This document shows, one piece after another, positions 4,699 to 34,945 of a stretch of DNA of 38,633 nt (its first letter is position 1; each line of letters opens with the position of its first letter). Under the pieces are notes generated by a model, which did no database searches, was not told where the DNA came from, and worked only from the letters and a program-made list of their open reading frames with translations. A program made the position numbers and the translations under genes. Location: the NCBI GenBank assembly GCA_027067775.1, contig JAMOVK010000077.1, forward strand, positions 1-38,633, read 5' to 3'. Source of the stretch: Deltaproteobacteria bacterium. GTDB lineage: Bacteria; Desulfobacterota; Dissulfuribacteria; Dissulfuribacterales; QOAL01.

Positions 4699-5151
4699 AT
4701 GATCATCCTTGAGGATCTCCTCTATACAGAGGAACACATGTGGGTTAAACCCGACGAAAACAGTGAAAAGGCTGTAATAGGAGTGACAGACTACGGGCAG
4801 GAGCGTATTGGCATGGTTAGCTCTGTTGATTTGCCAAGCCCTGGGGATGAATTTGTAGAGACCGACGTGTTTGCAACTGTAGAAAATTCTATGGGCGAGG
4901 TAACGGAACTCCTGTGTCCGATTTCTGGCCGGGTTCTTACGGTAAATGAAATGTTGCTGGACGCTCCAGAGGCCATAAACGAAGATCCTTATGATGACGG
5001 ATGGATGATGGTGATGGAAGTGGTTCAGCCAGAAGAGCTGGATGATCTTATGAGTCCAGAAGATTACGAGCGTTATGTGGAAGAGCTAAAGATCAAAGAC
5101 GAAGAGATCCTGGAAGAGGAGGACGAGGATGTACTGGAGGTAGAGGAATAA
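4699..5151 (+). CDS. GcvH-like lipoyl-domain protein lacking the lipoyl-acceptor Lys
   Basis: GcvH-like pattern EEHMWVKP...VGITDYxQ-like, ENSMGEVTELLCPISGRVLTVNE, NEDPYDDGW. Met replaces the Lys of the usual ESVKA motif; acidic C-terminal tail. Confidence 0.85.
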   Translation: MIILEDLLYTEEHMWVKPDENSEKAVIGVTDYGQERIGMVSSVDLPSPGDEFVETDVFATVENSMGEVTELLCPISGRVLTVNEMLLDAPEAINEDPYDDGWMMVMEVVQPEELDDLMSPEDYERYVEELKIKDEEILEEEDEDVLEVEE

Positions 5152-6095
5152 TGTCCAAAGTGGCCTTTCTGTTTCCTGGACAGGGCTCCCAATATGTGGG
5201 TATGGGGGCTGATATACGAAAGTCGTACAAGTTCGCCATCCCCATGTTTAAGGAGGCAGAGGATGTCTGTAATATCAATGTAGAGAAACTATGCATGGAT
5301 GGTCCCCTGGAAGATCTGACCAAGACGGTAAATCTTCAGCCTTGCTTGACTACTGTTGATATTATATGCGCCAAGGCCTTGATGGAAGAGGGAATACATC
5401 CCGATGCTGTGGCCGGACACAGTCTTGGAGAGTATCCAGCGCTTTGGGCATGCGGAGCTTTGGGGTTTGCAGATTGCGTCAGGCTTGTCCGAGAAAGAGG
5501 CAGGGTAATGGAAGAGGCTGCCCAGAAAAAGCCAGGTGCTATGGCAGCTATTATTGGCCTTGAATCGCAGCAGTTGCAAAGACTCATTGATGATGTGCTT
5601 TTGCACCTTAAAGGTGTGCTGGCAATGGCAAATCATAACTCCAGGGAACAGATAGTTGTGACTGGGGAAAAGGCGTTGGTCCAACAACTTTGTGGAAGGG
5701 TCAAAGAGTTGGGCAAAAGGGCGGTAATGCTCAAGGTCTCTGGTGCATATCACAGCCCTTTGATGAAGGAGGCGGCAGACAAATTTGCAAAAGCACTTTC
5801 TTCTCTAAAGCTCAAAAGGCCGTCCATCCCCATATACAGTAATGTAAGTGCAGAACCTGAAAAAGAGCCTGACACAATATCCCGCCTGCTTTTCCAGCAG
5901 ATGTGTATGCCTGTAAGGTGGTATGAGATCGCAAACAATATGTACCGGGACGGAGTCAGAATTTTTATTGAGACAGGACCTAAAAAGGTACTTTCCAATC
6001 TGATTAAAAAATCTGTTGATGCCGATGATTACCAAGTCCTAAATGTTGAAACCACCTCTGATATAGACAATGTAAAACATGCGCTTTCAATTTGA
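5151..6095 (+). CDS. fabD: Malonyl CoA-acyl carrier protein transacylase
   Basis: FPGQGSQYVGMG, AGHSLGEYPAL, YHSPLM, ETGPKKVLSNLI. Confidence 0.95.
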   Translation: MSKVAFLFPGQGSQYVGMGADIRKSYKFAIPMFKEAEDVCNINVEKLCMDGPLEDLTKTVNLQPCLTTVDIICAKALMEEGIHPDAVAGHSLGEYPALWACGALGFADCVRLVRERGRVMEEAAQKKPGAMAAIIGLESQQLQRLIDDVLLHLKGVLAMANHNSREQIVVTGEKALVQQLCGRVKELGKRAVMLKVSGAYHSPLMKEAADKFAKALSSLKLKRPSIPIYSNVSAEPEKEPDTISRLLFQQMCMPVRWYEIANNMYRDGVRIFIETGPKKVLSNLIKKSVDADDYQVLNVETTSDIDNVKHALSI

Positions 6096-6112
6096 GAAAA
6101 GGAGGCCTGCAG

Positions 6113-6319
6113 GTGTTTTATTTTCAAAGAAAAAATAACAAGCCGGTTGATTTAGAGTGTAGACTGTGCGGTTGCCAACTTGAGATATGCAGAAGATGAA
6201 GATCAGTGGCCTTGAGGTGTCAAGGCTGTGGCAAGCTTTTTTCTATTGGCGAGTATGCAAATGAGATGAGCGATGAATTGGCCAACATGTTGGCCTATAC
6301 CAGGGTTGACAGACTCTAA
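6113..6319 (+). CDS. Candidate small selenoprotein 1 (68 aa, Sec at TGA 6197-6199)
   Basis: GTG start 7 nt after AGGAGG (6100-6105). Read-through gives VFYFQRKNNKPVDLECRLCGCQLEICRRURSVALRCQGCGKLFSIGEYANEMSDELANMLAYTRVDRL*. SECIS-like hairpin follows the TGA. Ungapped core match to the paralog at 34745-34945. Confidence 0.85.
6209..6226 (+). promoter_or_regulatory. Candidate bacterial SECIS hairpin of selenoprotein 1
   Basis: GCCTTG-AGGTGT-CAAGGC: perfect 6-bp stem with a 6-nt loop, 15 nt from the TGA to the loop. The loop resembles AGGUCU of E. coli fdhF. Confidence 0.75.
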
Positions 6320-6325
6320 ACCAAA

Positions 6326-6348
6326 AAGGGCTCCATACAGGAGCCCTT
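6326..6348 (-). terminator. Rho-independent terminator for the small secreted protein gene (possibly bidirectional)
   Basis: AAGGGCTCC-ATACA-GGAGCCCTT; read on the minus strand it is followed by a T run (AAAAA at 6323-6327 on plus). Confidence 0.8.
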
Positions 6349-6381
6349 AAGTCTCAAATCCCTTATAGGCCTTGGTCTCAA

Positions 6382-6588
6382 TTAGCAGCCTTCAACCTTG
6401 GCAGCACTCTTGACCTTGATCTTAACGGAATCCCCTGCCTTTGCCTTGCATTCGTCCTTAAGCTTGATTACAAGTTCACCACCTTCATTCTTCACCACTT
6501 CGCCTTTGCATTTGGCGGCAAGACTTACACCAGAAAGACCTACTGTGAAGAAGAGTGCCAGAACCAGGGATGTAATTTTTTTACGCAT
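6382..6588 (-). CDS. Small secreted/periplasmic protein (68 aa), unknown function
   Basis: Clear signal peptide MRKKITSLVLALFFTVGLSGVSLAA; AGGAGG-type RBS upstream on the minus strand; own terminator. Confidence 0.75.
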   Translation of the reverse strand: MRKKITSLVLALFFTVGLSGVSLAAKCKGEVVKNEGGELVIKLKDECKAKAGDSVKIKVKSAAKVEGC

Positions 6589-6703
6589 GACTTCCTCCTT
6601 TTCCTTTTGTTGAAATGTTCTAATGACAGAACTACAGTACTGTTTTAGTATACGAACCTTTAAGGCGTGTCAAGTGGTTAAGTGAAATAGCACTCAAAAT
6701 ATT

Positions 6704-34721: not shown

Positions 34722-34746
34722 AAGGCGGCCTTGTTAAGGCCGCCTT
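34722..34746. terminator. Bidirectional terminator hairpin between dsrP and selenoprotein 2
   Basis: AAGGCGGCCTT-GTT-AAGGCCGCCTT, perfect 11-bp stem, then ATTGTTTGTT on the plus strand. Confidence 0.8.
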
Positions 34747-34945
34747 ATTGTTTGTTATCTGTAACGAAAGACTTGATAAGGTCTTCTTTCATCGCCTCAA
34801 TCTCTTCTGTATAGTGGCGAGCTGGCAACGTCATCCCGCAATCCTTGCAGGTAACAGTTGCATTTGCTCATCTACCGCAAATAGTGGCAGGACCTCCACA
34901 GAATTTACACTCAAGGGTTGTTTTGTTATCGGGTTTCTTTTGCAT
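34745..34945 (-). CDS. Candidate small selenoprotein 2 (66 aa, Sec at TGA 34870-34868)
   Basis: Minus-strand read-through MQKKPDNKTTLECKFCGGPATICGRUANATVTCKDCGMTLPARHYTEEIEAMKEDLIKSFVTDNKQ*. The TGA aligns exactly with that of selenoprotein 1; SECIS-like hairpin downstream. No strong Shine-Dalgarno seen. Confidence 0.82.
34835..34851 (-). promoter_or_regulatory. Candidate bacterial SECIS hairpin of selenoprotein 2
   Basis: Minus strand CCTGCAA-GGA-TTGCGGG: 7-bp stem with one U-G pair, loop beginning with GG, 23 nt from the TGA to the loop. Confidence 0.65.

Follow-up and report, generated by a model that had tools for sequence, protein, structure and literature searches.

A UGA-interrupted gene behind fabD in an uncultured deltaproteobacterium very probably encodes a small selenoprotein of a known family

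Does the segment directly behind fabD in an uncultured deltaproteobacterium, blank in a standard ORF call, hold a gene whose in-frame UGA is decoded as selenocysteine (Sec)? The window considered here is the whole stretch of DNA that was analysed, 38,633 nucleotides of contig JAMOVK010000077.1 (GenBank assembly GCA_027067775.1). A preliminary description of this DNA had proposed a missed gene with a GTG start, an AGGAGG ribosome-binding site, an in-frame TGA and 68 codons, and had made its Sec reading depend on Sec-decoding genes in the genome, on homologues with Cys or Sec at residue 29 and on a TGA that is not a sequencing error.

An interrupted frame and the genome that carries it

The sequence and the ORF list confirm the missed gene, termed P1 here (Table 1). 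The frame opens with GTG at 6113 and closes with TAA at 6317-6319, and its translation with TGA as U gives 68 residues with Sec as U29; the standard ORF list contains no plus-strand ORF of at least 60 aa at 6113-6319. Relatives share a start of GTG or ATG followed by F-[FY]-F, and the upstream gene, taken for fabD in the preliminary description, does match PF00698. Most of the taxonomic family retains the order gcvH-fabD-P1, and P1 stands behind fabD in this taxonomic order and adjoins other genes in other lineages. Gene neighbourhood was dropped as a clue to function, the neighbours varying by lineage and pointing to no pathway. On the 3′ side, the inverted repeat that follows the TAA probably sits between convergent genes, although the number of such repeats in the pattern scan was not above chance. 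The ORF converging on P1 (6382-6588, minus strand, 68 aa) has a signal-peptide-like start, three cysteines and no Pfam match; it was found at six congeneric loci, with 88-97% identity among them.

Table 1. Coordinates of features in the window (position 1 is the first letter of the 38,633 nucleotides).
Feature	Position	Strand	Remarks and basis
fabD	5151..6095	+	Directly upstream of P1; PF00698; ends 17 bases before GTG
Ribosome-binding site AGGAGG	6100..6105	+	7 nt 5′ of GTG start; read from sequence
Predicted selenoprotein gene P1 (NF041197 / OS_HP3)	6113..6319	+	68 residues, Sec = residue 29
Predicted Sec UGA codon of P1	6197..6199	+	Opposite TGC/TGT in 25 Cys forms
bSECIS-type hairpin GCCUUG-AGGUGU-CAAGGC	6209..6226	+	Starts 9 nt after UGA; covariation
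Inverted repeat 3′ of P1 TAA	6326..6348	.	Terminator-like on minus strand; pattern scan
P2 SECIS-type hairpin CC-(bulged U)-GCAA-GGA-UUGC-GG	34836..34851	-	Folding z and covariation
Predicted Sec UGA of P2	34868..34870	-	Read-through translation
Second family member P2, unannotated	34745..34945	-	66 residues, Sec = residue 26

The genome, nearly complete at 2.4 Mb in 165 contigs, holds the genes for Sec decoding on which the proposal had been made to depend: selA, selB, selD and a tRNA-Sec with anticodon UCA are all present, and selD carries an in-frame TGA of its own (AAGUAAKIGPGDL; contig C88, positions 5666-6592). Because selA lies above the cut-off in 360 of the 396 genomes of the phylum sample, its presence here says little by itself, and selA co-occurrence was dropped as a test of Sec use for the same high background. 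The selA match in all but two of the 112 genomes that bear the family, those two being incomplete MAGs, is at most weakly consistent with the Sec reading.

A known family with interchangeable Sec and Cys

Against the NCBIfam model NF041197, "dual CXXC motif small (seleno)protein", whose curated cut-off is 40 bits, the read-through protein of P1 scores 50.7 bits. The family name offered in the preliminary description thus proved correct, and the family of P1 is therefore one already known. It figures as "hypothetical protein OS_HP3" with the motif RxU in a 2026 review (PMC13188914); a 2022 review (PMC9312934) credits OS_HP3, without a domain, to a 2007 study of Olavius algarvensis symbionts, and the deep-Sep paper (PMC12013277) treats it as a known selenoprotein that its own method missed in Desulfosarcina widdelii. 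The passages of these three papers that deal with OS_HP3 or NF041197 give no function for it. P1 shares with NF041197/OS_HP3 its size, the dual CxxC and a Sec or Cys at the identical place, and so joins a known family without described function as a new member; P1 and P2 extend the known membership to an uncultured deltaproteobacterial lineage. Family matches (E <= 0.001) were found in 112 of the 396 genomes of the phylum sample, and among public species the close relatives are MAGs of uncultured bacteria labelled "Deltaproteobacteria", "Thermodesulfobacteriota" and "Thermodesulfatator sp." (12 MAG loci).

The matches in the phylum sample yielded 95 TGA forms and 25 Cys forms (18 TGC, 7 TGT), and in their alignment the P1 TGA column coincides exactly with the Cys codon column, which supplies the expected homologues with Cys or TGA precisely at residue 29. 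The spacing CxxC-x9-[U/C]-x6-CxxC is nearly invariant, with few exceptions among the 120 members, and the second CxxC follows U by 6 residues in 95/95 TGA forms. Across 70 diverse members, invariance is limited to C16, C19, U/C29, C36 and C39. The series CxxC, CxxU, CxxC of the preliminary description accordingly stands for its two CxxC pairs and the Sec, whereas CxxU does not hold as a conserved motif: Cys26 occurs in 26 of the 95 TGA forms and none of the 25 Cys forms, a distribution because of which it is no conserved redox partner and CxxU is ruled out as the redox pair of the family. A C-terminal Cys (CDR[IL]) was rejected as a universal resolving residue, being absent in P1 and many others. 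Most other P1 proteins do end in CDR[IL], unlike the P1 Cys forms of families f22, f68, f80 and f102, whose tail is I-I-Y-D or similar. The RxU motif takes the form RRU in P1, with R at position -2 in 47/64 P1 TGA forms and 24/24 P1 Cys forms; P2 has G at this position.

A tree from 51 usable columns, few enough that its inner order is not dependable, separates two clades, P1 and P2, with support 100/100, and members of both are present together in many genomes. It requires three or more changes of Sec/Cys state within P1, and P2 includes one Cys form. A catalytic chalcogen would be expected to leave repeated Sec/Cys changes such as those in P1.

The P2 gene of the window, which the preliminary description had missed, is predicted to encode MQKKPDNKTTLECKFCGGPATICGRUANATVTCKDCGMTLPARHYTEEIEAMKEDLIKSFVTDNKQ on read-through. 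At 39.8 bits this protein falls 0.2 under the NF041197 cut-off of 40, and three of the four other P2-clade proteins scanned pass, with scores of 42-46. P2 lies between dsrP and TPR genes, convergent to the former and preceding two of the latter, in 13/13 loci retrieved from the taxonomic family. In one genome (f45), a P2-type protein has a C-terminal extension of about 100 residues, which may reflect fusion to a larger domain. A search of the window for other genes read through a TGA, judged by eye, gave none convincing beyond P1 and P2.

Evidence for reading past the UGA

In seven congeneric sequences, the differences 3′ of the P1 TGA are distributed over codon positions 3, 1 and 2 as 361 : 151 : 58, and pairwise dN is mostly 0.05-0.2 against a dS mostly of 0.7-2.4, some of it saturated. 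Judged by these substitutions, the codons 3′ of the TGA are under purifying selection; dN lies far below dS and third-position changes are in excess, and reading therefore continues past the TGA. Among 20 genomes of the taxonomic family, 17 yielded a P1 orthologue with the same TGA, and since the TGA is common to all 17 orthologues found, the sequencing error considered in the preliminary description is excluded.

The hairpin GCCTTG-AGGTGT-CAAGGC, described earlier as lying 9 nt past the TGA, is present, and it covaries in 26 relatives. By itself it is unremarkable: compared with dinucleotide shuffles it reaches z = -1.0, and an equal stem arises in 6% of synonymous recodings. Across the 26 related sequences, 97.4% of the stem cells are paired and 5/6 pairs are compensated on both sides, the covariation score is reached by 0/500 shuffles, and sliding the stem by one column lowers pairing to 67% or less. 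The P1 hairpin is thus significant because of the comparison across relatives and not because of single-sequence folding. The E. coli fdhF SECIS has the loop AGGUCU, which the P1 loop AGGUGU resembles, with G in the first loop positions; a search of Rfam around the hairpin gave no match. The published bSECIS model has a loop of 3-9 nt with G in the first two positions, a stem of 4-16 bp and a distance from UGA to loop of 16-37 nt, and with an A-U closing pair P1 falls within these ranges, having a 4-nt loop (GGUG) 16 nt past the UGA on a 7-bp stem. SelB would bind this hairpin, and ribosomes would then read the P1 UGA as Sec.

Comparable stems recur in the family. Complete 6-pair stems in any of three registers were found in 55/95 TGA forms versus 0/25 Cys forms, the latter scored under the same rule as a control; the 55/95 count is descriptive because the registers were defined after inspection of the data, and the Fisher p of 2e-8 is too favourable, since it treats related sequences as independent. 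Another 16 of the 95 TGA forms reach no more than 4/6 pairs whichever register is used. For folding energy, the mean z against synonymous shuffles is -1.8 for P1 TGA forms, -1.5 for P2 TGA forms and -0.5 for P1 Cys forms. The use of three pairing registers (A, B, C) inside one protein family differs from the E. coli fdhF-type SECIS; the bulged U of the P2 hairpin is a point of resemblance to it. The P2 hairpin folds with z = -2.9 and is paired in 94.7% of cells over 22 relatives; its covariation is matched by 0/500 shuffles, with double changes only at the loop-closing pair. In P2 of families f36 and f69, the register has nearly the same loop position as in P1 of this taxonomic order.

Almost no credence can be given to the TGA as a real stop, leaving a 28-residue peptide or marking a decayed or mis-sequenced copy: the empty ORF call at 6113-6319 would suit it, but the stop-codon, pseudogene and sequencing-error readings are ruled out by conservation (the TGA common to all 17 orthologues), by selection 3′ of it and by covariation of the hairpin that follows, and Cys forms exist in other lineages. 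P1 is almost certainly a selenoprotein. For its identity and the Sec decoding of its UGA taken jointly, as judged from sequence comparison, we put the probability at roughly 0.9, a figure that does not cover any redox role.

Predicted fold and proposed chemistry of Sec29

An AlphaFold2 model of P1 from 70 sequences (mean pLDDT 75.5) has strands at 11-15, 22-27, 32-36 and 42-44 and a helix at 54-60. This is the arrangement to be expected of a zinc ribbon, and Sec29 lies on the turn that connects strands two and three. A Foldseek search with this model gave no match at E <= 0.001, and a PDB sequence search gave no significant match; the sub-threshold Foldseek matches are largely zinc ribbons, among them the aspartate transcarbamoylase regulatory chain, RNA polymerase subunits, ZifS and LysW. 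A zinc-ribbon fold is a likely assignment for P1, and the model probably places Sec at the tip of a β-hairpin. Two families of small ribbons invite comparison. The Lar restriction-alleviation family (PF14354 / TIGR03655), found in a phage or prophage setting, consists of small dual-CxxC zinc ribbons, as P2 probably is too; it is not known to contain Sec. P2 scores 28.1 bits against PF14354 (cut-off 28.6) and 19.9 against TIGR03655 (cut-off 39.6), below both thresholds, and P1 is not listed among the Lar matches of the profile scan. Zn_ribbon_6 (PF07191), the family of E. coli YfgJ, matches weakly over the CxxC region of P1 (15.6 bits, cut-off 25), but YfgJ differs from P1 as a double ribbon without Sec.

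In the arrangement that the model suggests, the two CxxC pairs would bind one structural zinc in the zinc-ribbon fold, and Sec29, on the turn that joins strands 2 and 3, would present one selenolate nucleophile at the surface, at a distance from the zinc. This selenolate might react with an external thiol and be regenerated by an external thiol, a cycle that appears the most likely one because the family has no invariant Cys beyond the four CxxC cysteines. P1 would then be a cytosolic one-Sec thiol or peroxide oxidoreductase, or a redox switch; such a selenol redox or thiol-exchange role is put forward tentatively.

The same lack of an invariant resolving Cys, in a small cysteine-rich protein with two CxxC pairs, would also suit a Sec29 that coordinates a metal, or captures soft metals or electrophiles (mercury, arsenic, a zinc store), instead of catalysing redox reactions. 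Such a role is unlikely, given the fixed spacing, a predicted position of Sec at the hairpin tip away from the zinc site and neighbours among which no metal-resistance genes were noticed. It is similarly improbable that P1 is a zinc ribbon with nucleic acid, RNA polymerase or the ribosome as its binding partner and with the Sec or Cys at the hairpin tip acting at the binding site. TFIIS-type ribbons have an acidic tip at a position comparable with that of the Sec/Cys hairpin tip, the weak fold matches include RNA polymerase and TFS zinc ribbons, basic residues surround Sec, and P2 comes close to Lar-type ribbons in its PF14354 score; none of these fold matches is significant, however, and Sec normally serves redox chemistry. 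A wider proposal is that P1 and P2 are two ancient paralogous selenoenzymes of a new architecture, each carrying a lone selenolate on the tip of its zinc-ribbon hairpin, and that P2 acts with the adjacent DsrMKJOP sulfate-respiration complex; taken as a whole, it is a long shot.

Two genes of this family were missing from the standard ORF call of one single window. The family is common in the phylum sample (112/396 genomes) and yet functionally undescribed. With the sequences aligned, the exchanges between Sec and Cys mapped and two paralogues distinguished, a functional test becomes straightforward.
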